A stretch of DNA of 48,890 bases, from assembly GCA_030018005.1 (NCBI GenBank), contig JASEGT010000007.1:1-48890 (forward strand), written 5' to 3'. A program made the position numbers and the translations under genes. Positions within the stretch are counted from its first letter, which is position 1. Each line of letters begins with the position of its first letter. The notes beneath the pieces were generated by a model that did no database searches, was not told where the DNA came from, and saw only the letters and a program-made list of their open reading frames with translations. This document shows, piece by piece, positions 11,104 to 30,790 of this stretch. The stretch is from Actinomycetota bacterium. GTDB taxonomy: Bacteria > Actinomycetota > Aquicultoria > Aquicultorales > Aquicultoraceae.

Positions 11104-11559
11104 ATGAAGGTAATCCTTAAAGAGACCGTGGGCGGCCTCGGTAGAATCGGCGAAGTGGTCGAAGTTGCCAGAGGCTATGCCCAGAATTACCTTGTTCCCA
11201 GGGGAATGGCCGTTGCGGCTACGCCCGGAACGCTAAAGGACTGGGAGCACAAGAAAGCGACGACCTCTAAGAGGCAAGCCCATGAGCTTTCGGAAGCACA
11301 AGAGCTTGCGGACAGCATCAAGGATAAAGAGGTCACAGTCGAAGCGAAAGCAGGCGAGGGCGGCAAGCTCTACGGCTCGATTACCGCGAAAGAGGTCGCG
11401 GAGGCTATCGCAGCGCAGCTTAAAATCGAGGTCGATAGAAAGAAAGTCGATATCGCCGGCGCAATCAAGGAACTCGGCTCGCATCCGGTTACAGTAAAGG
11501 TCTATCCGGGCGTCGACGCCGTCGTATCGATAAATGTAGTCGCAGCCAAAGAGGATTAA
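11104..11559 (+). CDS. rplI: 50S ribosomal protein L9
   Basis: The frame is open from 11089, but GGAGGAG at 11094-11100 directs initiation at the ATG at 11104, giving MKVILKETVGGLGRIGEVVEV, the standard L9 N-terminus. The N-domain rRNA-binding motif GYAQNYLVPRGMA is intact. A charged connecting helix (about 45-80) leads to the C-domain (GKLYGSITAKEVAEAI...KVDIAGAIKELG). Length (151) is normal. Its TAA overlaps the ATG of dnaB by one base, so the two are translationally coupled. Confidence 0.97.
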   Translation: MKVILKETVGGLGRIGEVVEVARGYAQNYLVPRGMAVAATPGTLKDWEHKKATTSKRQAHELSEAQELADSIKDKEVTVEAKAGEGGKLYGSITAKEVAEAIAAQLKIEVDRKKVDIAGAIKELGSHPVTVKVYPGVDAVVSINVVAAKED

Positions 11560-14186
11560 TGAAAGCGGCAGATAGACCGCATCTTGCGCAGTTCGATAGG
11601 GTCCCGCCTCATAATCTCGAGGCGGAGCAATCTTTGCTCGGCGCGATGCTTATCTCAAGCGATGCCATCGCCGAAATATTCGAGGACATCAAAGCCGACG
11701 ACTTCTATTCCGAAGCTCACCGGCGCGTATTTGAGACAGCGGTCGATCTCTACGCCAAAGGAGACCCTGTCGACCCGATAACCCTGGCGGAATCGTTATC
11801 GTCAAAGGGCTATCTAGAGTCGTGCGGGGGAAAATCATATATTCACACGCTCGTAAGCTTAGTTCCGAGCGCGGCGAACGCAAAATATTATGCTAAGATA
11901 GTCGAGCGCAACGCAACACTGCGCTCGCTTATCAAAGTATCGACCGAGATAGCGGCGCTCGGCTATGAAGGCCCCGAAGATGTCGACGGCTTGATAGACC
12001 GGGCGGAAAGCCTGATTTTTGCCATCGCCCACAAGCGCATGGCCGAGAAGTTTATCGCCATCAAAGACCTTCTCAAAGAAGGCTTTGAAGTCGTCGAGCA
12101 GCTCTTCGAAAAGAAAGAACAAATCACCGGCACCCCGACAGGCTTTGCCGACCTGGATCAGCTTCTCGCCGGCATACACCCCGGAGACCTTATCATAGTT
12201 GCGGCGCGTCCCGCTATGGGCAAGACCGCGTTCGCGCTTAATCTTGCCGCGAACATGGGCCTCAACAACCTGCCCGTTGCTGTTTTCAGCCTTGAGATGA
12301 GCAGGCAGCAGCTGGTCCAGCGTATGATGTGCTCCGAAGCGCGCATTGATAGCCACCGCTTGAGGACCGGCCAGCTCAGGGATGAGGATTGGTCGAAGCT
12401 CTCGGGAGCGGTCGGGCGGCTGGCGGAGACGCCCATCTACATCGACGACACTCCAAGCATCGGTATTATGGAGGTCAGGGCCAAAGCCCGGCGCCTTTTT
12501 GCACGCCATTCGCCGGGGGCTATCGTCGTCGACTATTTACAGCTTATGCAGTCGTACCGCAGGGTAGAAAACCGCCAACAAGAGATTGCCGAGATTTCCC
12601 GTGGCCTGAAGATACTCGCAAAAGAACTCGGCGTCCCGGTCATCGCTCTTTCGCAGCTCTCCCGAGCCGTCGAGCACCGCAGCGACAAACGCCCACAACT
12701 ATCTGACCTGCGCGAATGCGTTACAGGCGATACGCTAGTTGTTCTTACCGACGGATGTCGCGTCCCGATACGAGACCTGGTCGGCACAGAGCCAGATGTG
12801 CTCGCTATCTCACCGGATGGCAACATCATCCCAGCCAAAAGCGACAAGGTATGGTCGGTTGGGAATCGGCCAATATTTAAAGTGAAGCTGGCAAGCGGAA
12901 GAGAGATTCGTGCTACGGAAAAACATCGCCTGCTTGGTTTGGAAGGTTGGAAACGAGTAGGCGAATTGTCCGTAGGAGATAGGTTAGCCATAGCTCGCGA
13001 GATTCCGGAGCCTGCTGAAACGGTTGAATGGCCGGATGAACGTGTAGCGCTATTAGGTCAGCTCATTGGTGATGGTAGCTATCTTTCGGGCCAGCCGATG
13101 AGATATTCAACCGCATCTGAAGATAATAGTCGTCTAGTAAAGTTTGCGGCCGAGGAAGAATTCGGAGCCGAAGTCAAAAGATATAAAGGTCGAGGGCAAT
13201 GGCATCAGCTTTTAATAAGCGGAAATGGCAATCGTTGGGCACCCGCCGGTGTTAATGCGTGGTTGAGGGAACTCGGGGTATTTAACCAACGGTCGCACGA
13301 GAAGCGCATCCCAGGGGAGGCGTTCAAGCTTTCTAACCGGCAGATCGGCTTGCTTCTAAGGCATCTTTGGGCGACGGACGGCGCGATACACGTCAGGAAG
13401 ACCAATCAGAAGGGTAGCCCTAGCGTTTTCTTTAGCACATCCAGCAAGCTATTAGCAGAGGATATTGCGTTTCTTCTACTGAGATTAGGAATTGTTGCTA
13501 GGATACGAAAAGCCCAGCAAGGAACATCACGCCCCTGGTATAACGTGCATGTCTCGGGTGTGGACGACCAGTTGCGCTTCTTGGAGACCGTGGGAGCGTT
13601 CGGTCCACGAGTTAAGCAGGCAGACCAGCTTTTCCAGTCGATACGAAGAGTGATTCCTAATACAAATGTTGATACATTGCCGAGAGAAATCTTTTCCTAT
13701 GTCAAAAGATTAATGGCTGATCAAGGCGTTAGTCATCGTGCAATGGCGCGCGTACGAGGGACTTCCTTTGGTGGAAGCGCTCGTTTTAACTTTGCACCAT
13801 CAAGAGCAATAATAGCAGAGTATGCCGAACTCTTAGATGATGATGGGCTGCGAGCATATGCAACCAACGATCTTTTCTGGGATACTGTTGTTTGCATCGA
13901 GCCGGATGGAGAGGAAGAAACGTACGATTTAACCGTACCACGTCTAGCAAATTGGCTGGTAGATGGCATAATTAGTCATAATTCTGGAGCCATCGAACAG
14001 GACGCAGACATTGTCATGTTCATTCACCGAAACATCTACGGCAACCCGGACGACATCGACGCCATGGAAGAGCGGGGCACCGCCGAAATTGTCGTCGCCA
14101 AGCACAGGAACGGTCCCGTAGGCGTCGTGCGCCTCGCGTTCCTCGAGCACTACACCAAATTCGCAGACCTCGCGAAGAACAGTTAA
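11559..14186 (+). CDS. dnaB: Replicative DNA helicase DnaB, precursor containing an intein
   Basis: The 875-residue precursor comprises two extein parts of 386 and 67 residues (453 in total, normal for DnaB) separated by a 422-residue intein. The N-terminal domain starts at RVPPHNLEAEQSLLGAML. The RecA-like motor has Walker A ARPAMGKTAF near residues 214-224 and a Walker B-type hydrophobic strand IVVDYLQLM. The C-extein resumes with SGAIEQDADIVMFIHRN and ends with the DNA-binding loop segment AEIVVAKHRNGPVG. The mature hexamer unwinds DNA at the fork, and splicing is essential to make it. The gene overlaps rplI by one base (TAATG). Confidence 0.96.
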   Translation: MKAADRPHLAQFDRVPPHNLEAEQSLLGAMLISSDAIAEIFEDIKADDFYSEAHRRVFETAVDLYAKGDPVDPITLAESLSSKGYLESCGGKSYIHTLVSLVPSAANAKYYAKIVERNATLRSLIKVSTEIAALGYEGPEDVDGLIDRAESLIFAIAHKRMAEKFIAIKDLLKEGFEVVEQLFEKKEQITGTPTGFADLDQLLAGIHPGDLIIVAARPAMGKTAFALNLAANMGLNNLPVAVFSLEMSRQQLVQRMMCSEARIDSHRLRTGQLRDEDWSKLSGAVGRLAETPIYIDDTPSIGIMEVRAKARRLFARHSPGAIVVDYLQLMQSYRRVENRQQEIAEISRGLKILAKELGVPVIALSQLSRAVEHRSDKRPQLSDLRECVTGDTLVVLTDGCRVPIRDLVGTEPDVLAISPDGNIIPAKSDKVWSVGNRPIFKVKLASGREIRATEKHRLLGLEGWKRVGELSVGDRLAIAREIPEPAETVEWPDERVALLGQLIGDGSYLSGQPMRYSTASEDNSRLVKFAAEEEFGAEVKRYKGRGQWHQLLISGNGNRWAPAGVNAWLRELGVFNQRSHEKRIPGEAFKLSNRQIGLLLRHLWATDGAIHVRKTNQKGSPSVFFSTSSKLLAEDIAFLLLRLGIVARIRKAQQGTSRPWYNVHVSGVDDQLRFLETVGAFGPRVKQADQLFQSIRRVIPNTNVDTLPREIFSYVKRLMADQGVSHRAMARVRGTSFGGSARFNFAPSRAIIAEYAELLDDDGLRAYATNDLFWDTVVCIEPDGEEETYDLTVPRLANWLVDGIISHNSGAIEQDADIVMFIHRNIYGNPDDIDAMEERGTAEIVVAKHRNGPVGVVRLAFLEHYTKFADLAKNS
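12717..13982 (+). mobile_element. DnaB intein with LAGLIDADG homing endonuclease (codons 387-808)
   Basis: Splice residues are clear. Cys387 opens block A (CVTGDTLVVLTDG), block B contains TEKHRLLG (T-x-x-H), and the C-terminal block ends IISHN followed by Ser as the +1 nucleophile. The endonuclease dodecapeptides are LLGQLIGDG (about residue 497) and LLRHLWATDGA (about 600), each with its acidic residue, so homing activity may be intact. Insertion is between Glu and Ser of the conserved DLRE/SGAIEQDAD motif, a known DnaB insertion region. Codon use is more AT-rich than in the flanking extein, pointing to a separate origin. Confidence 0.93.
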
Positions 14187-17443: not shown

Positions 17444-18226
17444 CTACTCATCGTCGCGCATCTTCGCCACGATGATAAGCCTGGTCTTTGCGGAAAACCG
17501 GGGATTGCAGGTGGTAAGGGTCAACGTCCGGTCTTCGGTCGGGTCGATGACGCTGATTTCCGTCGGTTTGACGACTTTGGTTTCGACCACATAGTAGGCG
17601 TACTCCTCGTTGGCGTCGCTGACGAGGATCAGGTCGCCTTTGCCAAGCTCATCCAGGTAGAAAAAGGGCCTGCTGTAAGTGACCCGATGCCCGGAGATGA
17701 CCATGTTGCCAGCCTCTCCCGGGTGGGCGGTCTCCTCCATATGGCCCGGCCCCAGCTTCAAGGCTTCGGTGCCGACGCCTTCGACGACGATGGCGTCGAG
17801 GTCTATTTTGGGGATGACGATGCGGGCAAACGGCTCCTTCTCCTTGAATTTCGGGCGCGCTTCGGTCGTCGGCGGCGCGGCTTTTTCTTCAGCAACAGTC
17901 TCTATCGACCGGGATTTCTTGACTTCGCCGACCGTCTCTTGCGACTTCTCTGCTTCGTCCAGGGTCGTCGCGGCGCGCTCAATCGTCGGGGAGTCCTCTA
18001 TCGACAGCGACAGGGCAGCAGGCGAGGATGCTTGTTTCTCGGAGACGGCGGTCGCAGTCTTACCCCAATCGTCTTGGAGTTGCCGCTGTTTATAGGCGGT
18101 ATATACATCCGTATAGGCGATTTGCAGCAGGATATAGGCGCCGGCCGCTATGAGCGCCAGCCCTGCTAACCTATATATCATCGCCCTTTTGCCAGCAGCC
18201 ATTCCTTTACCCTCAAATCTGTCCAA
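17444..18226 (-). CDS. Class E-like sortase
   Basis: The 260-residue product has a single N-terminal membrane helix (about 18-36), a charged spacer rich in Ser/Glu/Thr (55-130) and a sortase domain (134-257). The catalytic triad is visible: His180 in ISGHR, Cys240 in LTLTTCNPR and Arg249 in SAKTRL. The TLTTCNP form and FARIVIPKIDLDAIVVEG opening are typical of actinobacterial class E/D enzymes, which attach proteins to the cell wall at an LPxTG- or LAxTG-like signal. A plausible substrate, the LPLTS-tailed protein, is encoded at 23832-24431 at the start of the same strand run. An internal ATG at codon 9 is an alternative start. Confidence 0.9.
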   Translation of the reverse strand: MDRFEGKGMAAGKRAMIYRLAGLALIAAGAYILLQIAYTDVYTAYKQRQLQDDWGKTATAVSEKQASSPAALSLSIEDSPTIERAATTLDEAEKSQETVGEVKKSRSIETVAEEKAAPPTTEARPKFKEKEPFARIVIPKIDLDAIVVEGVGTEALKLGPGHMEETAHPGEAGNMVISGHRVTYSRPFFYLDELGKGDLILVSDANEEYAYYVVETKVVKPTEISVIDPTEDRTLTLTTCNPRFSAKTRLIIVAKMRDDE

Positions 18227-18302
18227 TGCATCCGTCGTCCAGCAATTAACACCAACGCCTACGCGGGCCGGGACGCCCCGAACTCGTTGTCGAGCTTCAA
18301 GC

Positions 18303-20459
18303 TTAATCCCGTTTAAAAACTAAAATGTCATTCCTACTATAGACTTGCGTAAATTTCGTGTTGCGAAGCGTGCTTGCGATTTTCTGTTGGTCCGAATTGA
18401 GCTGGGAGAAATCAACGATAACAAAGTCTATAGTATCTTTATCGGCCGGGTTTTCTCCGTTTACACCCCAGTTGACCGCAATGTAAGGATTCGGGAACTC
18501 GTATATCTTTTCGCGGTGGGTCAGGTGCGGCACGAATACGTAGGACGCGCTAACCACGGCGTCATCCGGTATCAATACCAGAGCCTTCTTCATTGACGCG
18601 CGTTTTGCTTCATCGATGACGACAAAGGCCCGCTTATAATGACTCGATATCGGGGACGGGCTCCAGAAGAAGTTTGACGCCAGCGCTACCGCGACGAGTA
18701 GGGCAGCCACAACGACAGCTTCTCTCTTTTTTAGCGCGAGTTTTTCGATTGCGAGAATCGCTCCGGCGAAGACGAACGGGATGATGGTCGCGGTGTAGTG
18801 ATACTCGATATTGTGCATATAGCCTTGCTGGCTGACGGCATTGGAGAAGAGCGCGGGTAGCGCTACCAGCAAGACCTCGATGCTGGCGAGCGGTGAAAAT
18901 GCGACCGGTGCAAGTAGTTGTGTTATATACATGAGATTGCTCTCTTGTATTATGATGGGCAAGACGAGACCGGGTTTGGTCAAGGTGTTGATGGCGACCT
19001 CTCCCAGCGTCGAGCCAAGCGTTGAAAAATTACGGGCATAGAAGAGGCTTGTCCCGTTAAACGCGGGAAGGATATATTTTAGCCCGACAACGAACCAGGC
19101 GAGTGACGCCAGAGAGGTGGCAAACCCGACCGTGCGGTTGTTGGTGATCGCTAGGTATATTCCCATCACAATCATGACGAGCGCGACATCTTCCTTTGCG
19201 AGTACTGCGACGAGCGCTGCCGCTGTGAAGAGCATGTAACGCCGTTTTGTCGCGAAGTAGAACGCGAAGAGCAGGGTCGGTGTTGCCAGTGCCTCCGGGT
19301 GGAACTGGTCGTGGTTGAGCCATTGGAGCGCCGGATAGAGCAGGTAAGAGGCTGCTAAGGCCAGCGCGATGACGCTGTTCTTGAGCCTGTCGCGCGCCAG
19401 CAGGTAGACCGGGAGCGCGCCGATGGCCAGCATCACGGTCTGTAAGACGAGCAGGAGACGGACGTCCGGCCAGATTTTATAGAGCGGGGCTAGGAGCACC
19501 AGGTTAAATGAGAGGTGCTCCCCGAAGAGGTGAAGGCCTCGCACGGTCACGAACGGTTCTTTGAGTCGGCTCAGCAGCCAGACTCCCTGGTCGAATATGC
19601 CGAGGTCGAAGCCGTAGGTGCTGAAGTTGTTGTGCATGCGAACCGTCAAGAAAGAGAAGGTCGCTATGTATATGAGAATCATCGCGCCGAGCGCCGCGTA
19701 TTGATAGGTCTGTTTGGCGTATCTGGATGGCTGTTCGCCCAAGCGGATTGCTGCTTCGGCGCCGCTCGCATCGCCGGGCCCAGCTTGTTTCTCTTCGGAA
19801 TCGAGCGCGTCGGGGACGAGCCTACCGACGATGGCCGCGGGAGCTTTAAAGATAAGCGAGAAGAAGGTCGCTATGCGGCTTCCGCCGATGAGGTCTACCG
19901 CCTCGACCCGCGCTAGGCTGGTGTCGGGCCCGGCATCGATGAAGGCCAGCGAAAAAGCGTCTATTTGCAGCTCGAGCCCACGCCAGCGCATAGCGTCCAG
20001 CGACTGCTCGGGGTAATCGGAGGCCAGCACCAGTACGCGCTGGTTCTGGTTGAAGAGTCCTCTATCGAGGGCGTTATCGAGCGAATAGAACTCGGCATGT
20101 GATTTGGCCAGCTCGCTTCCGAGCCGGCCCTTTTGGGCGAGGTATCTCGCGTATGCCGCATCCAATTCGACGAAAGAAGTATGCCGAAGATTCCAGGCGA
20201 GTTCGGAAGCGGCTTCTATCGCCTGCCGCGATGTCGTGGTGTCGGCGATGAGCAGCACCACGAGAGAGCCTTGCTTGTCGAGGGCGATGAGACCCGTCGC
20301 ACCCTCTGGCGCCTCCCAGCCGTCGACGACAAGGAGCCGCTCCGGGAGAAGGCCGTCGCCTTCAGCCAACTTCTCTACGACCAGCTCCTTGAGCTGCGCC
20401 GGCCAATCGGACGCTTCCATCTTCTCAAATTTGCCGTCACGGACGCGAAATAGCGACAC
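18303..20459 (-). CDS. DUF2079 polytopic membrane protein with N-terminal nuclease-fold-like domain
   Basis: The 718-residue product has two parts. Residues 1-200 are soluble and include LIALDKQGSLVVLLIAD...AIEAASELAWN, which resembles the core of PD-(D/E)xK-type domains but lacks the E-x-K catalytic pair. Residues 250-600 contain about ten membrane helices with the DUF2079 pattern, including the early acidic loop STYGFDLGIFDQGVW and LHLFGEHLSFN. DUF2079 proteins resemble GT-C glycosyltransferases that use polyprenyl-linked sugars; the acidic loop is where the catalytic Asp would sit. The start is GTG, immediately after the TAA of the upstream membrane protein, so the two are coupled. Confidence 0.75.
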   Translation of the reverse strand: MSLFRVRDGKFEKMEASDWPAQLKELVVEKLAEGDGLLPERLLVVDGWEAPEGATGLIALDKQGSLVVLLIADTTTSRQAIEAASELAWNLRHTSFVELDAAYARYLAQKGRLGSELAKSHAEFYSLDNALDRGLFNQNQRVLVLASDYPEQSLDAMRWRGLELQIDAFSLAFIDAGPDTSLARVEAVDLIGGSRIATFFSLIFKAPAAIVGRLVPDALDSEEKQAGPGDASGAEAAIRLGEQPSRYAKQTYQYAALGAMILIYIATFSFLTVRMHNNFSTYGFDLGIFDQGVWLLSRLKEPFVTVRGLHLFGEHLSFNLVLLAPLYKIWPDVRLLLVLQTVMLAIGALPVYLLARDRLKNSVIALALAASYLLYPALQWLNHDQFHPEALATPTLLFAFYFATKRRYMLFTAAALVAVLAKEDVALVMIVMGIYLAITNNRTVGFATSLASLAWFVVGLKYILPAFNGTSLFYARNFSTLGSTLGEVAINTLTKPGLVLPIIIQESNLMYITQLLAPVAFSPLASIEVLLVALPALFSNAVSQQGYMHNIEYHYTATIIPFVFAGAILAIEKLALKKREAVVVAALLVAVALASNFFWSPSPISSHYKRAFVVIDEAKRASMKKALVLIPDDAVVSASYVFVPHLTHREKIYEFPNPYIAVNWGVNGENPADKDTIDFVIVDFSQLNSDQQKIASTLRNTKFTQVYSRNDILVFKRD

Positions 20460-22727
20460 TTAGATGTTGCTCCTTTCCGCTTCGCCTTGGAGTTCTGCGC
20501 CGGCAAGCCCGTCGCCGAGGCGCATAGAGGAGGTCGCCGGCACCGCGAAGCGTCGCCAGGCAAACCGCAAGCCGTACGCGAGGACCGCAATCCAGCCTAT
20601 CGCCCCGAACCACGCCGCGAAGACGTCGATAAAGGTGCTTCCGTAGTAGAGGCGGACTTCCTTTTGCTTTGGAATAACCATCATCAGGGAGGGCGACGCC
20701 AGGTATGGCCCGTCGGCGCCGGTCACCTTCCAGTTCGGAAAGTATGAGATCTTTATCCAATGGGGCACGCCGATGGCGGTCGTCGAGAAAGTAAGCTCGT
20801 CGTCTTTGATTCTCACGTTGCTGACCCGCCCATCGGTATCAATGCGTTTGCTTACCATCTTGTCCGTCGCGGCTCCGACCATTTTATACTTGCCCTTAAG
20901 CTCTTTGGCGTGGCCCAGCTCGATAAGCGGCGTTTCCAGCAATTGAGGTTGTGCGTACCAGTCGAGCGCGGTTTGGCGCCAGTTGGGCGTCTTAGCCAGG
21001 AGCGGTTCGTATTCGGGAATCGTCACATATCCCTCAGTCTCGGTTTCGTAGAGGGCGAACTCCATATCGGTGCCTTTTACTTTGAACCTTTTTAAGAGCT
21101 CGAGGTCGGGGTTGATGTCGGCTTCGCTCTTGACCTCGTCTGATAACGCCAGAAAATAGGGGATGTTGTAGACCTTTAGGTGCCTGACGCCGTCGGCCAC
21201 GTTGAGCGGCGGGTAGTCGACGCCTAGAATCGCGTGGCTCGCCTCTTTGGATAGCTCGGATTGGTTGACGAAGTGAAAAGGTGCCGTAAGGGAGGCCTCC
21301 ATGAGCGTCCCTTCCATCGTCGGGTGGTTCGCGAAATAAGGCAAAAGCTCGAACGCGCGCGGGGTGCCGAATTTGTCTATGGCGTTGGCGTGCTCTATCA
21401 TCACTCGGCCTGGGGGCAGTCCCTTGATATATTCGTTTATTTCGTTATAGCTCGCCCACTGCGCTTTCCCTTCGAAGCCGGAGTAGTTCCACTTTATCCA
21501 GTCGTCGGCGACCCGGTTGCCGACGCCAAAGACCGCGATTGCGGCGATTGTCGCAGCGAGCACGCCGAGTATGTAGTCGGAGTGGCGTTTGGGTATGAGA
21601 ACATAATCATAGAGGAGCTGTGCTATGACCTTGCGCAGGAACCAGAGGCCGTAAGCGGCCCAGACGAACGAGAAGAAATAGAAGAACGGGAGCAGCCGCC
21701 CGTTCCAGATGCGACCCGGCGGGAGCAGGAAGAAGAGCGACGCCGAGACGACGAGGCTCCAGAGCAAAAAGTAGACGCGCTCATCGCGTTTGGCGAGGGC
21801 TCCGATGACCCCGATTACAGTCAATGGGAAGAAGAGGCGGAGCGGTTCCGGGATAAGCTCGTTGAGTCCGCTCAATTGGTCCCACTGCATATGCGCCGTA
21901 TAATCGAGTTTCGCCAAAAAAGGGAGTCCCCAAAACGAGCTCAAGACAAAACCGAGCCCGAAGACGCCGGCTAAGATGCCGAAACGCTTCCAGTTCAACC
22001 TGCGGAAGAGATAATATGTCGACATGATTACTATCATAATCGTCGTGACCAGGTGCGAAAGGGTGATAATACCGAGGAGCACGCTGGTCGAGACCCGAAA
22101 GCGCTGCTCTTTTACGTCGCGGTAGAGGAGCGCGAAGAAGAGAATCGTCAGCGAGAAACTGAGGCTGTACCCGAATTCCCCTGCGAGCGTACTTAAAATA
22201 TTGGCTCCGTAGATGGAGTAGCTCTCCATGAAGAGGAACGGGAGGCTGAAGGCCGCGGCCATGATGGGCAGCGGGAACCTGAATCCCAACACCCGAAAGG
22301 CCCCGTATGTCGTCGCCGGCAAGAGAAATACCCCGAGAATCGTGCCGAGCTTGAACGCCACCTCGTACTGCATGAACAGGTTCAACAGCGCGATTATCAT
22401 AAACGGGAACGGGAAATAGAAATGGAGCATGGGAAAGCCGGCATACCAGCCGGGCGACCAGCCCGTTATCTTGCCTTGTGGTAACAGGTGGTTTATCAAG
22501 TAGTCGGCGACGTAATGATGCGCGCCGGTGTCGCCACCCGCGGTCGTCGTCGGCGAAAGAATAAGCTCCGGCCTGAAAAAGGAGAGCAGCGTCAGGTAGA
22601 TGACCGCGAAACTTATTGCGGTGACATAAAGCGACGCCTTCGATTTCATATTTTTCTGCGTAGAGGTATCGATAATTGCCCCCTTCTCATATACAGAAGT
22701 CTCCCCTAAATCCGGCGGAATATCCAT
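20460..22727 (-). CDS. PTPS-related polytopic membrane protein, GT-C-like
   Basis: The 755-residue product has many membrane helices from residue 30 to about 420, a long extracellular region (about 430-690) and a final helix near 700-720. The first outside loop contains TTAGGDTGAHHYVADYL. The acidic GGD motif and overall plan fit the '6-pyruvoyl-tetrahydropterin synthase-related' membrane family (a misleading name), which resembles GT-C oligosaccharide transferases. A role in transferring a lipid-linked sugar to a surface acceptor is inferred. The Met at codon 27 (MKSKASLY) is an alternative start; neither has a strong ribosome site. The stop is directly followed by the DUF2079 gene. Confidence 0.72.
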   Translation of the reverse strand: MDIPPDLGETSVYEKGAIIDTSTQKNMKSKASLYVTAISFAVIYLTLLSFFRPELILSPTTTAGGDTGAHHYVADYLINHLLPQGKITGWSPGWYAGFPMLHFYFPFPFMIIALLNLFMQYEVAFKLGTILGVFLLPATTYGAFRVLGFRFPLPIMAAAFSLPFLFMESYSIYGANILSTLAGEFGYSLSFSLTILFFALLYRDVKEQRFRVSTSVLLGIITLSHLVTTIMIVIMSTYYLFRRLNWKRFGILAGVFGLGFVLSSFWGLPFLAKLDYTAHMQWDQLSGLNELIPEPLRLFFPLTVIGVIGALAKRDERVYFLLWSLVVSASLFFLLPPGRIWNGRLLPFFYFFSFVWAAYGLWFLRKVIAQLLYDYVLIPKRHSDYILGVLAATIAAIAVFGVGNRVADDWIKWNYSGFEGKAQWASYNEINEYIKGLPPGRVMIEHANAIDKFGTPRAFELLPYFANHPTMEGTLMEASLTAPFHFVNQSELSKEASHAILGVDYPPLNVADGVRHLKVYNIPYFLALSDEVKSEADINPDLELLKRFKVKGTDMEFALYETETEGYVTIPEYEPLLAKTPNWRQTALDWYAQPQLLETPLIELGHAKELKGKYKMVGAATDKMVSKRIDTDGRVSNVRIKDDELTFSTTAIGVPHWIKISYFPNWKVTGADGPYLASPSLMMVIPKQKEVRLYYGSTFIDVFAAWFGAIGWIAVLAYGLRFAWRRFAVPATSSMRLGDGLAGAELQGEAERSNI

Positions 22728-22767
22728 AGCCGTGCCATTGAGCGATAGGGGATAAGGTCAACGCGCT

Positions 22768-23544
22768 CTATGTGCTGCCGGGCTTGCGTTGGCTCTCGAT
22801 GGTAAAATAATAGCGCAACCTAAGGAGTCCGAAGACAGTTCGAGGAATCCTTTTGAGGATACTGGAGCGGGCGACGCGCTTCTCCTCGATGACAACGGGT
22901 ATCTCTTTAATCTTGAGGCCGTTCCGCTCGGCGCGCAATATGAGTTCCGTATCGAAAAGGTCTTTCGACATGCGGCTTTGGAGCACCAGCGGCTCGATTT
23001 TCCTGCGACGGAACGCCTTCATTCCGTGCGTGTCGCTTAGTTTTGTGTTGAATAGTATCTTGAGTACCAGGCTGAAGCCCCGTGTTATGGTCCGGCGCGC
23101 CAGACCCCGTTTATCCTCGGTCTCGGGCGCGAGTTTCGAGGCGAGCACTACATCGTAATTCTCGAGCAGCGCCAGCGCCTCATTCATAAAGCGCACGCTG
23201 GAGTAATCGATATCGAAGACGATGATGTGCGGCGCGTTTGCGGCGAGGACCCCCATCTTCATGGCGCCCCCGTAATCCGGCGAATCCGTGGTCAACAGGC
23301 GGGTGTGAGGTTGCTCGTCGGCCAGCGAGAACGCCAGCTCCCGGGTCTTATCGGTACTGCCGTTTTCGCACAGAATCAGCTCGTATGCGACGCCCGTCTC
23401 CTCCAAACCGGCCTGGAGCTCCGCGAGCGCCCCGGCCAAGAACGACTCCTCGTTATGGATGGGGATGATTATCGACGCGACCGGCTGGGCCACAGCCCGG
23501 CCTTCCGCATCGGTGAACTCATTCGCCCGGACAACATTTTCCAT
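22768..23544 (-). CDS. Family 2 glycosyltransferase (polyprenyl-phosphate sugar synthase-like)
   Basis: The frame is open to 23610, but the first 22 codons encode an Arg/Ala-rich stretch unlike the family. I place the start at the ATG giving MENVVRANEF. The 258-residue product shows the GT2 opening ASIIIPIHNEESFLAGAL, ENGSTDKT, the D-x-D motif in VFDIDYSS, and a Dpm1-like C-terminal part (DTHGMKAFRR, IKEIPVVIEEKR). There are no C-terminal membrane helices, so it should act at the inner face, charging polyprenyl phosphate with a sugar for the two GT-C-like proteins 40 bases downstream (inference). Confidence 0.85.
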   Translation of the reverse strand: MENVVRANEFTDAEGRAVAQPVASIIIPIHNEESFLAGALAELQAGLEETGVAYELILCENGSTDKTRELAFSLADEQPHTRLLTTDSPDYGGAMKMGVLAANAPHIIVFDIDYSSVRFMNEALALLENYDVVLASKLAPETEDKRGLARRTITRGFSLVLKILFNTKLSDTHGMKAFRRRKIEPLVLQSRMSKDLFDTELILRAERNGLKIKEIPVVIEEKRVARSSILKRIPRTVFGLLRLRYYFTIESQRKPGST

Positions 23545-23831
23545 AGACCTTAGGCACATCCTTCTTGTTCGGCGGCGACTTGCGCTTGCGGCGCAGGCGC
23601 AATATCGCACTATGCGCTACCTGTGAGTGCCGCCGTCTTCTATCCGCAAAATCGAACCACGCTTTGGGGGCTGGACTTACAGCCGTCAACGTTAGATATA
23701 TTCCCATATCAGAAATATAGCTAACAAGGGAGGCGCCCGGCGACTAAACCGGCAACATTATATACTCTTTAATATTTATTATAAGTTGTGGCGCGCGTTA
23801 AGCAAATCGTAGATTGTGTATTGCGTAAGCG

Positions 23832-24431
23832 CTAAGCGCGGGGGATGGCCTTGGTGTAGGTGGTCCTGCCGATGATTATCAGCAGAATCGCGATGGCGAA
23901 GTAGGGTTTTAAGTCCATACTGGTGAGCGGCAGGTTTTCTTCGGAAGCGATAGCGGGATTGCCGACTTGCTCTCCCTTGACGACAACAGTATCGTTTTGG
24001 CTGGTCGTGGCAGCGACTGAGCCTTTTGTGGTCACGGCAGCGTCCTTAGTTGTCGAAACCGGCGCGGATGAGTTTTTTGTTGTGCTGCTGGTCGTGGCAG
24101 TCTTGGCGGGTTTAGTCGTGGCAGGAACGGTCGTGGCAGAAGAGACCACCGTGCCGTCGCGCAGGATTTTGGTGCTGCTCGTGGCCGGAGGCTTAACCGT
24201 CGTCTGTGTCGTGGCACCGGGCTCGGTCACGATAACCTTACCGTCTTCAAGGAGTCCGATATTTTCGAATTCCGGCTGTGTACCGGCAGCCGTGCCGGTG
24301 TCGGCGTACACAGCAAGCGGTGCCAGAAGCAGCGTGAACATGATTACCGGCAAGAGTACGAGCGTTACTTTTATTCTCAAAGCCTCAACCCCACGTTTTT
24401 TGATTGGTAATGTCACTATCGCATCTACCAT
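23832..24431 (-). CDS. Thr/Ser-rich surface protein with LPLTS sorting-like signal
   Basis: The 199-residue product has a signal peptide (hydrophobic core about 22-42, cleavage near VYA-DT). A short ordered part (EFENIGLLEDGKVIVTEP) is followed by a Thr/Ser/Ala/Pro/Lys stalk at about 70-150. The tail is LPLTS (167-171), a hydrophobic helix PYFAIAILLIIIG and a basic end, the three parts of a sortase sorting signal, with Ser in place of the usual Gly. The stalk would be a natural O-glycosylation target for the glycosyltransferases encoded next. A TTG at 24380 would give a shorter, cleaner signal peptide. No family match is recognised. Confidence 0.75.
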   Translation of the reverse strand: MVDAIVTLPIKKRGVEALRIKVTLVLLPVIMFTLLLAPLAVYADTGTAAGTQPEFENIGLLEDGKVIVTEPGATTQTTVKPPATSSTKILRDGTVVSSATTVPATTKPAKTATTSSTTKNSSAPVSTTKDAAVTTKGSVAATTSQNDTVVVKGEQVGNPAIASEENLPLTSMDLKPYFAIAILLIIIGRTTYTKAIPRA

Positions 24432-24996
24432 ACAAAAATTCTACCCTTATTCACCCTTTTTTTAATCATGCAAGCGGTCGAAAAGGGTCATCCTCTAGGG
24501 TGATTGAAGCGCTCGTGCCGGATTTATGCTTCTTAAACCTGTTCTTGATGGATTTCGTTCTGTTGTGTTATGTCTGCTGACAGAGAGCACAGAAGCCGCA
24601 ACTCTAAGCGCGCATTAGATTTACCGACAACGCACGAGCCCGTCAATAAACCGCTGCCATATAATACCATATATAAATATTACTACAAACCGTTGACACA
24701 CACACTAGGATACTATGCTAGACGTATAGATTTTACCGACATTATATAAAGCAGACAGCAGAACCTAAATTGCTGAAACGCGATGCTTTAGCATAAAAAA
24801 CAAAACGAAAGAAGGTGGGGTGGTCAATTAGGCATTCTTTAACGCAAGTCTTTATTTTATAGCGCCGGAATATGCTCTAAGGTTTGTAGGCGGGAAAATG
24901 AAAAGGCAAGTATTGTATTTGCATCAACAACAATCCATATATTTAGTTGGTGCTAATACAAAGCCCCAACAAGATTAAGAACAAGGAGGAATTAAA
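24432..24996. other. AT-rich intergenic region between divergent genes
   Basis: About 565 bases separate the divergent sorted protein and golvesin-like gene. TTGACA at 24693 is followed by TATGCT after 15 bases, a possible but short-spaced promoter for the rightward gene. AGGAGG precedes the GTG at 24997. I see no gene, known riboswitch or mobile-element end. Confidence 0.4.
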
Positions 24997-25502
24997 GTGC
25001 GTAGGACAAAAAAGCTCACCATTGTGTTTTTGCTTTGTCTTAGTTTTATCTTAGGTACGGCTGTTGCATATGCTGTATCGTGGGTTACTTATAATGGTAA
25101 TGCGTCATCCGGGTGGACTGGAGCAGGTACGTTTAATGTTGCCAGTGGCACTGGTCATGGTTATGACGGCACATTATATTGGGCCAAATCAAATCAAATC
25201 AAAGCTCTTCTGTTGGTCAATGGCGACCTGGAGCGCCAGCGAGTTACTATTATGATGTCTCCGTTTATGTGCCAAACTACTATACAACAGCGCCTAGCGT
25301 AAAATATACAATGCTTCATAATAATTACGAGAGCGCATCATTTATTTTATCAAACTATAATCAAGTTAGTGACGTGTGGGTCAAGATGGGTAACTTCTAT
25401 AAAAAGGCAGGCTGCGATTTTATGGTGCAGATGAATGGCTCTGGCCAGCCATCTACAAATGAATATATTGCCTGGGATGAAGTGCGAGCCTATAAGCCAT
25501 AG
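24997..25502 (+). pseudogene. Secreted golvesin-like protein, out of frame at a CAAAT repeat
   Basis: Two frames together make one protein. The first (24997-25302, GTG start with AGGAGG upstream) gives a signal peptide (LTIVFLLCLSFILGTAVAYA) and the strand region VSWVTYNGNASSGWTG. It then leaves frame after WAKSNQ. The second (to 25502) carries ASYYYDVSVYVPNYYTTAPSVK through YIAWDEVRAYKP, resembling golvesin C-terminal-like/carbohydrate-binding beta-sandwich domains. The break is at a run of CAAAT units. Removing one unit restores a continuous frame of about 166 codons through the repeat. It may be a decayed gene, a phase-variable gene in its OFF state, or a sequencing error. Confidence 0.75.
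25185..25203 (+). repeat. Pentanucleotide repeat (CAAAT)3CAAA inside the golvesin-like gene
   Basis: Three perfect CAAAT units plus a partial fourth lie exactly where the reading frame switches. A five-base unit changes frame with each gain or loss, as at contingency loci. Confidence 0.85.
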
Positions 25503-25518
25503 TCAGGAGGGGATAGAC

Positions 25519-26307
25519 ATGAGATTAAGCGGAAAACTAGTATCAATAGTTCTTGGAATGTTTCTAATGTTTGGAATTGGCATAAGTGCGGGTGCCCACT
25601 ATATTCTAAAACCCGCAGTCGCTGAAAACAAAGGTAGTTTCGTCAATATTCATACGATTGTTAGGAATCTGACCAGCGATCCTGTACTTGCTAAGGCCAT
25701 GAACACGAATGCAAATTACAACACACTTATAGGTACTATCAAAAAGAACAGTTCCAAAGAAAACTCCAGTGCTGAATTGACTGTCCAGCAAAATCCTGCT
25801 CTCTACAGCGTCGTGTATACCCCTGATCTTCGAGATCCTGCGGAAACTATCGAGGAGAAGAACAACGGAGATAAGGTTTTACGATTTGACAAGAAGAAAC
25901 AGAAGAAAGAGTATTCCAATTCGATTCCAGAAATGACTACATCTGGAGCCAGGGACAGTAATACGATTTATCCTAATTGGAATGGAACATCTACTCAGAT
26001 TCATGAAGTAAATGCATTGCTTCATCCTGAAATATCAATACAGGGTTTATTTACCAGATCTATAGTCACCAACAAGGGCGTTGCTGAGATAGCCGGTAGA
26101 AAAGCCACTGAGTATATGGTTGAACCTCGAGTTAAGAAAGAACAGCTCGACTTTGATAAAATAGATAGATACGAGTTCTTCTTTGATAATGAGACCGGTA
26201 TTCTCTTAAGAACTGTGAGTTACGATGGCAGCAACATAAAAGAAGAAATATACTTTGAAAAGATAGATATCGACCGCGAGATCGACCAGAACATTTTCAA
26301 ATTCTAG
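25519..26307 (+). CDS. Membrane-anchored LolA/RseB-like protein
   Basis: GGAGGGG at 25506-25512 fits the ATG at 25519; an upstream in-frame ATG would lie inside the preceding frame. The 262-residue product has an N-terminal anchor or signal helix (KLVSIVLGMFLMFGIGISAG). The C-terminal part (EIAGRKATEYMVEP...YEFFFDNETGILLRTVSYDG...EEIYFEKIDID) is the strand pattern of LolA/RseB-type half-barrels, whose hydrophobic cavity binds lipid or unfolded protein. No lipobox is present. It lies 16 bases after the golvesin-like gene, so the two were probably co-transcribed. Composition is AT-rich like the rest of the island. Confidence 0.65.
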   Translation: MRLSGKLVSIVLGMFLMFGIGISAGAHYILKPAVAENKGSFVNIHTIVRNLTSDPVLAKAMNTNANYNTLIGTIKKNSSKENSSAELTVQQNPALYSVVYTPDLRDPAETIEEKNNGDKVLRFDKKKQKKEYSNSIPEMTTSGARDSNTIYPNWNGTSTQIHEVNALLHPEISIQGLFTRSIVTNKGVAEIAGRKATEYMVEPRVKKEQLDFDKIDRYEFFFDNETGILLRTVSYDGSNIKEEIYFEKIDIDREIDQNIFKF

Positions 26308-26327
26308 TTGAGCCTGTCGCTCAAACT

Positions 26328-26426
26328 GTCACTCAGCAGGAGATGGAAAAAGCGCAAGAGCAATACTTTGCATATCTGGAGGATCTGCTTAAAAAAGCAA
26401 AAGTCGAGATTCTCGATAGTGAATAG
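26328..26426 (+). pseudogene. Truncated duplicate of the SurA-like gene tail
   Basis: This open stretch encodes VTQQEMEKAQEQYFAYLED followed by LLKKAKVEILDSE and a stop. The C-terminus of the intact gene at 30164-30790 reads TTQQDMEKAQGQYDAFMED then LLKKAEVEILDSE. The match continues past the stop through the terminator. There is no start or ribosome site, and the stop of the LolA-like gene lies 20 bases upstream, so it is a relic of a duplication or recombination. Confidence 0.85.
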
Positions 26427-26508
26427 ATAATCCGTCTCGATGCTGTGCGAGGCAGAAAAATAACGCTGTTATAAAGAGCAACCTGAATAAATCGGTTGCT
26501 CTTTATAT
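26331..26508 (+). repeat. Direct repeat, copy 1 (SurA-like gene tail plus terminator)
   Basis: About 175 bases similar by eye (roughly 80-85%) to 30695-30870, in the same orientation. It covers the last 30 codons, the spacer ATAATCCGTCTCGATG and the terminator hairpin. Similarity ends at the group IIC intron boundary. Confidence 0.8.
26473..26508 (+). terminator. Intrinsic terminator, target of group IIC intron insertion
   Basis: AAAGAGCAACC (26473-26483) pairs perfectly with GGTTGCTCTTT (26494-26504) around a 10-base AT-rich loop, followed by ATATTC. The intron begins two bases later, as expected for group IIC introns, which insert just after terminator stems. Confidence 0.85.
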
Positions 26509-26510
26509 TC

Positions 26511-28210
26511 GTGCGCCCGGCAGGGCGCACGCACTTGAGGGTGAAAGTCCCTTACAGGCCCGACAGGGGGAACTGTTAGCTAAACGGCAAGGGTGTCTAC
26601 CGTGAGGTAGAATCTAAAGGAAGCCGAAGGCAAAACACTGGCCCGACGAACAGAAATCGCATACGAGGCGGCTATGCTGGATGAGAAGGCAAATATCTTC
26701 AAAGTCCGGTACCTGTACGGAAAGCATAGTCGTATATGCGGCGGGTATAAGTGGGAAGGTGCGCGCGCATTACCCGGGGAGGTCTGTCAATCTGCCATAT
26801 GTGCTACCATCATCGCAAGGTGGCGGGATGGGATGGCAGAAGTCAGCAGAGGGCATACTAGGCCTTTCGACCAGGCTGAAGGCCCGAACATGAAATACGA
26901 AGTAGCACTTTAGGTTTCGCAAGTGAAGGAGGCGCAGTAAAGATGGTTGAGATACCAAACACCCACCCAAAAGGAAGCGGACGGAATTCGCAGGGCTTTG
27001 GGATAGGTGCGCCAAACACTGCGGCAACGAACAAGAACGCACACTTCAAAAACGACAAAGTAATGGAAGCAGTGGTCGAACGCGAGAACATGAAAGCGGC
27101 TTTAAAAAGAGTGGTGGCAAACAAAGGAGCCCCCGGCGTTGACGGGATGAGAGTCGAAGAACTCACCTCGCACTTGAAAGAAAACTGGGAGAGCATCAAA
27201 GAGAAGCTCCTGCAGGGCAGTTATCTACCAGCCCCCGTGCTTTTAGTCGAAATACCAAAAGCAGGCGGCAAGGGAACAAGGGCGCTGGGTATCCCCACCG
27301 TGCTTGACCGCCTCATACAACAAGCCCTACTGCAAGTCCTAACCCCGGTCTTTGACCCCACGTTTTCGCCCACGAGCTATGGGTTTCGCCCGGGAAGGAG
27401 CGCGCACCAGGCCCTAGAGGCAGCGCGCTCCTACGTCGCAGAGGGCAAGAGGTGGGTGGTAGACATCGATATCGAGAACTTCTTCGATAGGGTAAACCAC
27501 GACATCCTCATGGCGCGTGTTGCGCGCAAAGTCACCGACAAACGGGTCTTAAGGCTCATCCGCCGCTATCTTACCGCCGGAATAATGGCCGGGGGGATAA
27601 CATCGCCCCGCACGGAAGGTACACCGCAAGGGGGACCCCTTTCACCATTGCTCTCAAACGTCCTCCTCGATGAACTCGACAAGGAATTAGAGAGGCGGGG
27701 CCATGCATTCGTGCGCTATGCCGACGATTGCAATGTCTATGTTCGCTCAGAAGCGGCCGCCGAGCGGGTGATGGCGTCAATCACAGGGTTCTTAAAGAAG
27801 CGGCTCAAGCTCAAAGTCAACACCCAAAAGAGCGCCGCGTCCCGTCCCTGGAAGAGAAAGTTTCTAGGCTACTCGATGACGTGGCACAAAATACCCCGGC
27901 TCAAAGTAGCGCCCGAGGCAATCGCGCGCTTGAAAGCAAAGGTTAAAACCATCATGCGCAGAGGAAAAGGGCGCAGCCTGGGGTGGATTATCGACGAACT
28001 CACACCGCTTCTTCGCGGCTGGGCAAATTACTTCCGGCTGGCTGAAGTCAAAGGTATCTTCGAGGAACTCGACGGCTGGATACGCCGCAAACTGCGCTGT
28101 GTTCTTTGGCGCCAGTGGAAACGCACATATACTCGTGTTAAGAAACTCCTAAGCCGGGGATTATCTGAAAAGCGTGCTCTCTGGGCCCACATTAACCTGG
28201 GGACCAAATA
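26511..28210 (+). mobile_element. Group IIC-type intron, 3' end missing
   Basis: The 5' end reads GTGCGCCCGGCAGGGCGCAC, a GUGYG intron start with the class C sequence, then TTGAGGGTGAAAGTCCC, typical of domain I. It lies directly after a terminator hairpin. The reverse transcriptase is encoded inside. After the ORF I cannot find a domain V (no GAGCCG...CGGTTC-type 34-base hairpin) or a domain VI. Instead, an unrelated coding fragment begins at about 28195-28210. The element therefore seems 3'-truncated and unable to splice by itself. It is more GC-rich than the island around it. The exact 3' breakpoint is uncertain. Confidence 0.8.
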
Positions 28211-28229
28211 CTTTGCCTGCAAGTTCTGA
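26943..28229 (+). CDS. ltrA: Group II intron reverse transcriptase/maturase, C-terminus replaced
   Basis: The 428-residue product starts at an ATG with AAGGAGG about 10 bases upstream. RT blocks are present: [81 protein letters not shown] and the catalytic YADD at residues 259-262. The maturase X region includes [19 protein letters not shown]. After [13 protein letters not shown] the sequence stops resembling the family and ends in KYFACKF within about 12 residues, so the C-terminus comes from downstream DNA. The protein would copy and help splice its intron RNA. Polymerase motifs look intact, but the intron lacks its 3' end. Confidence 0.92.
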
Positions 28230-28422
28230 CTGGCTTAAAGCTTATGCTTCATTTAGGAACAGTACTTGGCCTGGTGGTCCTTATGAAAATGCAATCGTAA
28301 ACCAGACTAATGTCTACTCAAATGGGAGCGGCAATGGGAGCACCACATTTTATGTCGACCCGAAAGGCTCAAGCTGGAATTGGAAAGTTAAAAGTTGGTA
28401 TAACAAAACTGTTATATATTAA
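28196..28422 (+). pseudogene. 3' fragment of an unidentified secreted-protein gene
   Basis: An open frame running out of the intron remnant encodes [17 protein letters not shown], then WPGGPYENAIVNQTNVYSNG and a Trp/Ser/Asn-rich end. There is no start or signal peptide of its own. The Asn/Gly/Ser/Thr-rich composition and AT-rich codons match the secreted proteins of this island. I do not recognise the family. It looks like the surviving C-terminus of a gene whose 5' part was lost with the intron's 3' end. Confidence 0.5.
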
Positions 28423-28596
28423 ATATTAAGCTTGTTCTCTGATTCGCTAACATTGCTATAGGCAACATACGCTTTGATTGATGAGGACTGGTAAGCTTAG
28501 GTATATATGAGGTCAGGGTTTTGCAGTGACGCTATAAGCAGAGGCTTGGTTCTGTATGATTCGTCTGCAATGGTCTGTTTGCACGTCTCTGGAAGC

Positions 28597-28645
28597 GGAA
28601 TAACGCCGTATTGATTTACTGTGGCGTTATTCCTCGCGGTTATTT
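28597..28645 (+). terminator. Inverted repeat, probable terminator
   Basis: GGAATAACGCC (28597-28607) pairs perfectly with GGCGTTATTCC (28623-28633) across a 15-base loop. A T-rich stretch (TTATTTGTT) follows about 6 bases later. It would end transcription of the fragment upstream. Confidence 0.5.
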
Positions 28646-28688
28646 GTTAACAACTTAGTAATACATAGAACAAGGAGATACCGCATTC

Positions 28689-29423
28689 ATGTTTAAGAGA
28701 ATGATGCTCCTAATTGGTGCCCTGGTCTCGGCTGCAGGTTTTGCTGTTGGGATTTGGCTTTTAAGGGAAGCTACGACTGCTTCTTCGTACAGCCCTAATG
28801 AGCTATTAGCAATTACCGGAAAGTTGATGGCACTGTTCTCAGTGCCATCATTTATCAGCCTCTTAACCTATAGCATCCTTATTCATAAAAAGGGTAATAA
28901 GCCAGGCAACCATAGCGCTCAATTGCCTTATGTTATTATAACTATAGCTACAATGGTGACTTTCTTAAATGTGATCACCGTAACCAGTCTCGAGGTTAGT
29001 CCGCGAATATCCCTGTTCTATGTGCCACTGGCAATCATTGGAATAATTGTTCTTATTAGATTAGCGGATTCGTTTGATGCTGATTCCTGTGAGCAAAATG
29101 AATCCAACAATCTATATCGCATGCTTAATGTTTTAACTACTATTTCTGTGTTGATTTGCTTGATATCTTTTGTATATTTTAAACTGTTTCTCAAAAACTA
29201 TCTTCTGATTCCGATAGCCATTTATGCACTAGTGCCGATTGTAGTCTCGCTAAGGTATCGTGTTTACAGGCCTAACTTGGCAAGCTTTCTGGTGTTGTGG
29301 GCCAGCCTTGGCAATATAATCATTGGGGCATCAATATCAATGGTAGCAGGTCTTGTCTATGCGCCAATTATCGTACTTTTAATAGTTACTGGAATCATTA
29401 GTTTATATCAGAACTCTTTATAA
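28689..29423 (+). CDS. Polytopic membrane protein of unknown function
   Basis: The 244-residue product is almost entirely hydrophobic, with about eight predicted membrane helices (first at 5-26, last ending near the C-terminus at ISLYQNSL). I see no conserved charged motif suggesting a transporter or enzyme family. AAGGAG lies some 13 bases before the ATG, a rather long spacing. It lies 15 bases before the first SurA-like gene (counted from its ATT), suggesting a joint transcript. The AT-rich composition matches the island. Confidence 0.6.
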   Translation: MFKRMMLLIGALVSAAGFAVGIWLLREATTASSYSPNELLAITGKLMALFSVPSFISLLTYSILIHKKGNKPGNHSAQLPYVIITIATMVTFLNVITVTSLEVSPRISLFYVPLAIIGIIVLIRLADSFDADSCEQNESNNLYRMLNVLTTISVLICLISFVYFKLFLKNYLLIPIAIYALVPIVVSLRYRVYRPNLASFLVLWASLGNIIIGASISMVAGLVYAPIIVLLIVTGIISLYQNSL

Positions 29424-29438
29424 TCGAGGTGAGTTTAG

Positions 29439-30074
29439 ATTATTCAAGAACCAAATAAGCGCTTTGGGCATCGATATCTGAGGAACGCTATTATTCTATT
29501 ATTAATGATCATGAGTCTTGTGATATACAAGGATTTCCTATCTAACCCAGCGCCTATTGTGTCGGTAAATGGTTTTTTGATCACAAAGGATATGTTATAC
29601 CAGCGACTTGAAAAGCAACATGGTAAACAAGTGCTTCAATCAATGCTTAGCGAAACCCTAATAAGACAAGAGGGCAATAATCAACATATCACCGTGGGTG
29701 AAAAAGAGATGAATGGTCGATATAAATATCTTGTTAGTACTTATGGCTCGGCTAAGGACTTAGAAAGATGGCTAACCAAGCAAGATATATCAAGACCGGA
29801 ACTATACGAGCAGCTCAGAATGCAAATCATCACAGAAAAGCTTTTAGCGAAGAAAATCATACAACCGACGGAGAAGGAACTAATCCAGGACTATAATCGA
29901 CTTAAGAACACAGCTTTTGAAGGAAAATCGTATGAAGAGGCAAGGGCTACTATTAAGCAGAGCTACATTTCCATGCAAGTTGGTTTGTTGCTTCCTCGTC
30001 TGGAAGAAGAACTTCGAAAAAAGGCAAAGATTACCTATTTAGATGAGACATATTCTATACGAAATGATGAATAA
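29439..30074 (+). CDS. SurA-like membrane-anchored protein, probable ATT start
   Basis: The first ATG in frame (29505) would cut the only membrane helix in half and has no ribosome site. In the same frame, GAGGTGA at 29426-29432 stands 6 bases before ATT ATT CAA GAA, and an in-frame TAG just upstream excludes a longer start. Starting at ATT gives 211 residues with basic residues then RNAIILLLMIMSLVIY as anchor. The outside part (ITKDMLYQRLEKQHGKQVLQSMLSE...QPTEKEL) has the helix pattern of the SurA/PrsA N-terminal chaperone domain. There is no PPIase (rotamase) domain. Likely an extracytoplasmic folding helper (inference). Confidence 0.6.
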   Translation: MIQEPNKRFGHRYLRNAIILLLMIMSLVIYKDFLSNPAPIVSVNGFLITKDMLYQRLEKQHGKQVLQSMLSETLIRQEGNNQHITVGEKEMNGRYKYLVSTYGSAKDLERWLTKQDISRPELYEQLRMQIITEKLLAKKIIQPTEKELIQDYNRLKNTAFEGKSYEEARATIKQSYISMQVGLLLPRLEEELRKKAKITYLDETYSIRNDE

Positions 30075-30163
30075 AAAGAACTGGCCTAACGTTGCCTCCA
30101 TGCGGCCTATGAGGCAATACGCCCATCGCTATAAAACAGTTATGATAAATCAGGGAGTCAATA

Positions 30164-30790
30164 ATGACAAGGAAACCAATAATCCTGGTAGTAGGCGCGG
30201 TAATTATATTTTTAGTAGGAGGCCTTGCGTACACATACGCGGAATCTCCGTATTTCAAGCTTGGCCGTCAGATGAAAGAGGCAAGGGAAGGCGCAAATTC
30301 GCAGAAAGTTGTAGCAAGAGTTAATGGCAAGTCGATTACCGCAGGGGAGTATGCTGTGCATATGGCAACACAAGCAGACTCTCATAAGCAACTAGGGCTT
30401 CCCGCGCCAAGCAAGAAAGACATTATTAATCTATTAGCAAAAGGTATTCTGGTGCAGGAAGAAGCCAGCAAGAGAGGTATCAAAGTAACCGATGCTGAGG
30501 TTCAAGCATATATAAATGAGCAAAGAAGGTCAATTGAAGAAATACCCGCAGAGAACAACCAAGTGTATATAGAAGGGCTTAAAGGTCAAGGGTTAACCGA
30601 AGATGAATATTGGTCGAGTAAAGAGACCTTTGAGGGCTATAAGAGCAATCTTATCGAGGGTGAACTCAGGAAGCAGTTTATTGGTGAGGCTACCACGCAG
30701 CAGGATATGGAAAAAGCACAAGGGCAATATGATGCTTTTATGGAGGATCTCCTTAAAAAAGCAGAAGTTGAGATTCTCGACAGTGAATAA
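30164..30790 (+). CDS. SurA N-terminal-domain protein, membrane-anchored
   Basis: The 208-residue product has a strong N-terminal hydrophobic helix (IILVVGAVIIFLVGGLAYTYA). It continues with VVARVNGKSITAGEYAVHMA and LLAKGILVQEEASKRGIKVTDAEVQAYI, the hallmark of the SurA/PrsA/PpiD N-terminal chaperone domain. It lacks a parvulin PPIase domain, so any activity would be chaperone-like, on proteins outside the membrane. GGGAG lies about 7 bases before the ATG. It follows another SurA-like gene by 89 bases and ends in a perfect terminator. The last 30 codons are duplicated at 26328-26426. Confidence 0.78.
   Translation: MTRKPIILVVGAVIIFLVGGLAYTYAESPYFKLGRQMKEAREGANSQKVVARVNGKSITAGEYAVHMATQADSHKQLGLPAPSKKDIINLLAKGILVQEEASKRGIKVTDAEVQAYINEQRRSIEEIPAENNQVYIEGLKGQGLTEDEYWSSKETFEGYKSNLIEGELRKQFIGEATTQQDMEKAQGQYDAFMEDLLKKAEVEILDSE

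Follow-up and report, generated by a model that had tools for sequence, protein, structure and literature searches.

We analysed a stretch of DNA of 48,890 nucleotides (positions 1 to 48,890 of contig JASEGT010000007.1, assembly GCA_030018005.1; hereafter the window), which belongs to the Candidatus Aquicultor lineage (Actinomycetota) and has Candidatus Aquicultor sp. and Ca. Aquicultor secundus as near relatives. Five genes on its minus strand, in the order stalk, GT2, PTPS_related, DUF2079 and sortase, appear to form a module for glycosylation outside the cytoplasm. The genes, with Pfam E-values, and the parts of their products discussed below are as follows.

23832..24431, minus strand: stalk, a Thr/Ser-rich small secreted membrane protein with a signal peptide, an ectodomain of ~129 amino acids and a C-terminal transmembrane (TM) segment
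23919..23933, minus strand: LPLTS pentapeptide of the stalk, from the alignment of family stalks
23859..23906, minus strand: conserved C-terminal TM segment of the stalk, following D-x-K-P-Y/F, from the alignment of 9 stalks
22768..23610, minus strand: GT2 glycosyltransferase without TM segments (Glycos_transf_2, PF00535, E 2.1e-15), resembling polyprenyl- and dolichyl-phosphate hexose synthases and PgfS
20460..22727, minus strand: PTPS_related polytopic membrane protein (PF10131, Pfam GT-C clan, E 1.1e-28)
18303..20459, minus strand: DUF2079 protein of 718 amino acids (PF09852, E 1.2e-74), an N-terminal NucS-like domain plus a GT-C core by AlphaFold model and fold search
19905..20459, minus strand: N-terminal EndoMS/NucS-like domain of the DUF2079 protein, residues 1-185, from structure and profile comparison
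18306..19739, minus strand: residues 241-718 of the DUF2079 protein, its predicted GT-C core by fold search; D285 and D290 of the first outer loop are invariant
17444..18226, minus strand: class E-like sortase (PF04203, E 1.3e-35), with His, Cys and Arg present and the class E S3 Tyr changed to Met (GHM)

No Pfam family matched the stalk. An initial annotation of this DNA had described five same-strand genes, two of them without spacing, and both points were borne out at the coordinates it gave. The two genes that abut are PTPS_related and DUF2079: the GTG start of the latter (20459) follows directly on the stop codon of the former (20460-20462), with an AAAGGAG ribosome-binding site 10 nucleotides upstream of the GTG. 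The likely start codon of the GT2 is the ATG at 23544, and that of the sortase probably lies near 18202. Ratios of nonsynonymous to synonymous substitution rates (dN/dS) among three congeners indicate purifying selection on all five genes (0.06-0.37 overall), with values of 0.06-0.10 for PTPS_related, 0.12-0.15 for GT2, 0.18-0.22 for the sortase and 0.21-0.37 for the stalk; within the DUF2079 protein they are 0.11-0.14 for the core and 0.19-0.26 for the N-terminal domain.

A comparison of gene neighbourhoods, which the initial annotation had proposed as a check, showed that these families do co-occur in related genomes. In the genomes of the family (G000, the window genome, to G010), the block lies between genes that we take from their translated sequences to be purD and a convergent purA, with loss of some members. 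PTPS_related is present there in 11 of 11 genomes, the stalk in 9 (G006 has none, and in G004 the contig breaks off too soon), the sortase in 8 (the four congeners, G004, G005, G008 and G010; a similar sortase is located elsewhere in G006 and G007) and DUF2079 in 7. The GT2 at the locus is of the TM-less kind in the four congeners, G004, G005 and G008 and of a distinct, TM-bearing kind in G007, G009 and G010; G006 has no GT2 and thus lacks both this gene and the stalk while keeping PTPS_related. PTPS_related is also the sole block member between purD and purA in one genome of the same order. Because the five-gene arrangement is kept across several genera and all five genes are under purifying selection, it is not a product of chance.

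The initial annotation had named two GT-C-like transferases, and a fold was obtained for one of them. In an AlphaFold model of the DUF2079 protein (predicted local distance difference test score, pLDDT, 73.6), residues 241-718 matched ArnT (5f15) with a Z of 15.7 (4.4 Å, 380 aligned residues), and further matches were Pmt4 (Z 15.6), STT3 (15.5) and PglB (15.4). The motif FDLGIFDQ lies directly after helix 246-277, and its D285 and D290 are invariant in 11 divergent members. Sequence-profile searches of solved structures with DUF2079 or with its N-terminal domain gave no useful match. By this model, the DUF2079 protein has a GT-C fold with an acidic first outer loop.

For PTPS_related, the GT-C assignment is based on the Pfam clan in which PF10131 is placed (CL0111; PMC7801869) and on the first loop, where the alignment shows an invariant TxxGGDxGAH that includes D66; these features make it a candidate GT-C protein. 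Its profile matched no solved chain. When the DUF2079 and PTPS_related profiles were compared with each other, there was no match, for which the shallow alignments are the probable reason. Our literature search found PTPS_related mentioned only as a family of unknown function and gave no match for DUF2079.

At 47 loci outside the family, all in Actinomycetota and with the identities of example neighbours checked, the neighbours of PTPS_related include a phosphomannomutase/phosphoglucomutase at 32, a GT2 at 18, GtrA at 7 and DUF2079 at 6, with neither a sortase nor the N-terminal domain at any of the 47. In Acidimicrobiia UBA5794, the genes for phosphomannomutase, GT2, DUF2079, GtrA and PTPS_related are contiguous. 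That PTPS_related adjoins phosphomannomutase and GT2 across the phylum points to polyprenyl-phosphate-mannose or -glucose chemistry as its ancestral function, to which the Aquicultor family would have added the stalk and sortase. The GT2 of the window has 0 TM segments and scores against NF047588 (PgfS) at E 8.7e-9, which is below the cut-off of that model, as is its match to NF041391. Its likeness to PgfS and to dolichyl-phosphate hexose transferases supports the role proposed for it in the initial annotation, that of charging a polyprenyl carrier.

In most sampled Actinomycetota loci (L133-L172), a phosphomannomutase adjoins PTPS_related, which is a strong functional hint for a family without a known function.

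The initial annotation overlooked that the DUF2079 protein carries an additional domain at its N-terminus. This domain matched the nuclease-domain structures of EndoMS/NucS with Z values of 8.8 (5gke), 8.7 (5gkj) and 8.2 (2vld), which by themselves are borderline; stronger evidence comes from the sequence profile, which matched NucS_C-type proteins in hhalign (E 8.2e-17, 98.8%), two of which pass the PF01939 cut-off. The catalytic residues of SisEndoMS are D159, E173 and K175 (Asp-x13-Glu-x-Lys; PMC7736090). The corresponding positions in the window protein are G56, L70 and A72, and in all aligned members they are G, L or A, and A. Since the catalytic Asp, Glu and Lys are all replaced, the domain should be catalytically dead and should not cut DNA. 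By the topology of the protein it would be cytosolic. Among 396 genomes sampled from the phylum, the domain proper was found in the Aquicultor family alone, with no second lineage, and a few other genomes of the phylum have related free-standing NucS_C-type proteins with D, E and K intact. No NucS_C match was found in the window genome or in six related genomes searched, so the domain has no recognisable NucS paralogue at home. The profile did not support the idea that the DUF2079 protein of G047 has a homologous N-terminal domain. Our literature search found no description of a NucS-like/GT-C fusion.

In G007 (L030:10120-10773), the dead NucS-like domain occurs by itself (217 amino acids) after PTPS_related in the same gene order, with the GT-C core gone. 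This free-standing form may act in trans or may be a remnant.

The "LPLTS-tailed Thr/Ser-rich protein" of the initial annotation is real in composition and in its pentapeptide, but LPLTS is not a canonical LPxTG motif. Thr and Ser make up 32% of the stalk ectodomain (mean 12% in the other window proteins), and the C-terminus reads ...ENLPLTS-MDLKPYFAIAILLIIIGRTTYTKAIPRA. Within the genus, the pentapeptide is LPLTG in G001 and G003, LPLTS in the window and LPLTV in G002. The TM segment and tail are present in the alignment, where D173, K175, P176, A179, L183 and L184 (D-x-K-P-Y/F plus TM) are invariant in the 9 stalks, and LPLTG/S/V is confined to the four congeners. Some SrtA forms cleave LPATS and LPATV (PMC8361268). 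The stalk C-terminus was rejected as a general sorting tag, since the stalk is present in a single copy per genome, at the purD-purA locus only.

The SGHR, TTCNP and TRLII segments of the window sortase align with an SrtE-type chain, so that the catalytic His, Cys and Arg are present, and its score against the class E model NF033747 (143.1 bits) is below the cut-off of 160. Where the SrtE-type chain 5go5 has GHY, the aligned window sortase has GHM, and we take the Tyr of 5go5 to be Tyr229 of SrtE1. In class E sortases, a Tyr in the beta3/beta4 loop goes with the LAxTG motif (PMC5148588). The GHM-type sortases of G005 and G006 adjoin LPRTG or LPVTG proteins and the GHY-type sortase of the window genome adjoins a QAETG protein, which is in line with this rule.

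Two of these neighbours have further features. The second GHM sortase of G005 (L085:7069-8225) has as its neighbour a small protein that is very rich in Thr/Ser and ends in LPRTGG...RNRRK, which by its sequence is a clearer sorted Thr/Ser stalk than that of the window. On contig C75 of the window genome, a gene at L034:7470-8051 (plus strand) encodes a small protein that resembles c-type cytochromes (CTECH; weak cytochrome matches in Pfam) and has a linker rich in Thr and a tail of the form QAETG-TM-basic, and is convergent with that of the GHY-type sortase, which has C-terminal TPRs (L034:8142-9548, minus strand); the former is possibly a sortase-anchored cytochrome.

Because of the GT-C model of DUF2079, the clan of PTPS_related and the phosphomannomutase/GT2 neighbourhoods, we read the locus as a module for extracytoplasmic glycosylation of the Pgf-like kind, in which the sortase step is optional and one domain fusion is new, a reading to which we give a probability of roughly 60%. 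The computations show the gene identities, their conserved linkage, the GT-C fold of DUF2079, its dead NucS-like domain and the purifying selection. In the mechanism that we infer, including its sugar, acceptor, order of steps, anchoring and use of the NucS-like domain, the GT2 would load a sugar, most likely mannose or glucose, on polyprenyl phosphate at the inner face; after flipping, PTPS_related and DUF2079 would transfer the sugar at the outer face. The most likely acceptor would be Thr/Ser residues of the stalk encoded alongside, which its conserved TM segment at the C-terminus would hold in the membrane. Within the genus Aquicultor, cleavage at LPLT^G/S/V by the neighbouring sortase may then attach the stalk to the wall. 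The cytosolic, dead N-terminal domain of DUF2079 would most likely be a binding or docking platform, for the GT2, PTPS_related or a regulatory ligand. We suggest, tentatively and expecting that it may well prove wrong, that a dead NucS domain was recruited as a cytosolic regulatory or docking part of a GT-C glycosyltransferase, such that binding at the inner face (of a protein such as the GT2, a nucleotide sugar or nucleic acid) controls sugar transfer outside.

Several observations weigh against this module or its anchoring step. The evidence that points to the stalk as the glycosylated acceptor is its Thr/Ser richness, and in G009 the ectodomain is down to 47 amino acids with 19% Thr+Ser. 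Given that the rest of the sampled phylum has no sortase near PTPS_related and that G006 has no stalk, the ancestral acceptor of PTPS_related may differ. An AlphaFold model of PTPS_related from five sequences was unusable (pLDDT 43.1; predicted template-modelling score 0.32), and a search for GtrA in the window genome found none. In the stalk alignment, an LPxTG-type pentapeptide is missing from 5 of 9 stalks, all outside the genus, and G005, G008 and G010 have a local sortase yet stalks without LPxTG. With the motif limited to the genus and missing from the stalks of these three genomes, the claim of the initial annotation that the sortase fixes the product to the wall is weakened: such anchoring is possible in the genus Aquicultor and unsupported for the family.

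These stalks suggest an alternative, namely that the stalk is TM-anchored and never sorted, that the sortase serves other LPxTG proteins and that LPLTG in the genus is fortuitous. The strongest conservation in the stalk is that of D-x-K-P-Y and the TM segment, and G005 and G006 each have, at another place and next to true LPxTG proteins, a sortase of the same type. However, LPLTG is perfect in two congeners and is followed by a TM segment and basic tail, all four congeners have the sortase within the block, and a Pro-containing motif would suit the Met that stands at the class E Tyr position; we consider this alternative a serious one whose chances fall a little short of even. A second alternative, which we consider rather unlikely, is that a glycolipid or a polysaccharide of the wall (a lipomannan-like glycan) receives the sugar from the GT2 and GT-C proteins, with the stalk and sortase as neighbours or accessories. 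Although PTPS_related is widespread beside phosphomannomutase away from any sortase and is kept alone in G006, and actinobacterial GT-C enzymes that act on glycolipids and wall glycans (PimE, AftB) include some in the DUF2079 fold list, the stalk and a GT2 gene accompany PTPS_related in nine family genomes and are both gone in G006, and the stalk is Thr/Ser-rich and under selection.

The PTPS_related/phosphomannomutase/GT2 linkage offers a testable assignment of PTPS_related as an outer-face hexosyl (probably mannosyl) transferase, and both this family and DUF2079 are widespread. For an enzyme of surface glycosylation, a fused dead nuclease would be a surprising regulatory element, and the stalk might represent a switch between membrane-held and wall-sorted forms inside one small family.

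Other features of the window lie outside the block. About 6.5 kb (24500-31200) separates the stalk from purD; this insert is missing in the congener G002, where the stalk adjoins purD, and it holds a reverse-transcriptase open reading frame of group II intron type (26943-28229) plus others. At 25185-25203, CAAAT is repeated three times within a frame for a secreted protein, and reading resumes in another frame (24997-25302, 25179-25502), possibly reflecting slippage, phase variation or sequencing error. At 11559-14186, an intein-like insertion (CVTGDT... to ...IISHN) interrupts a DnaB helicase.

Parts of the locus can be compared with known proteins. SrtE (5go5, 5cuw) is among the best solved relatives of the window sortase and shares its catalytic residues, but the latter falls under the NF033747 cut-off and has Met for the class E Tyr. 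The N-terminal domain shares fold and profile with the C-terminal nuclease domain of EndoMS/NucS (5gke, 2vld; PF01939) but lacks all three catalytic residues and the NucS N-terminal domain, and is joined in one chain with a membrane protein of the GT-C type. Actinobacterial Ppm1/Pmt protein O-mannosylation (PMC5882110) likewise uses a polyprenol-phosphate sugar and an outer-face GT-C enzyme acting on proteins; its GT-C families are different, and the protein acceptor in the window is putative. With three-component glycosylation by a GtrA flippase, a polyprenyl-phosphate-sugar synthase and a GT-C transferase, the window shares the GT2 plus GT-C core, but GtrA is found in related loci of the phylum and not in the window genome. 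The closest likeness in outline is to the Pgf system of Streptococcus mutans, in which pgfS-pgfM1-pgfE-pgfM2 modifies the Thr-rich, LPxTG-bearing Cnm (PMC5856776). The view of the initial annotation that the combination is undescribed needs qualifying, since in the pgf operon a GT2 and two polytopic membrane proteins are already combined with a substrate that is Thr-rich and bears LPxTG. The window membrane proteins are DUF2079 and PTPS_related, with PMT_2 (the PgfM1/PgfM2 type) not found by Pfam, and the block has no epimerase gene and a putative acceptor, with a sortase and an extra NucS-like domain. The window locus is thus like Pgf in outline without being a member of that system.

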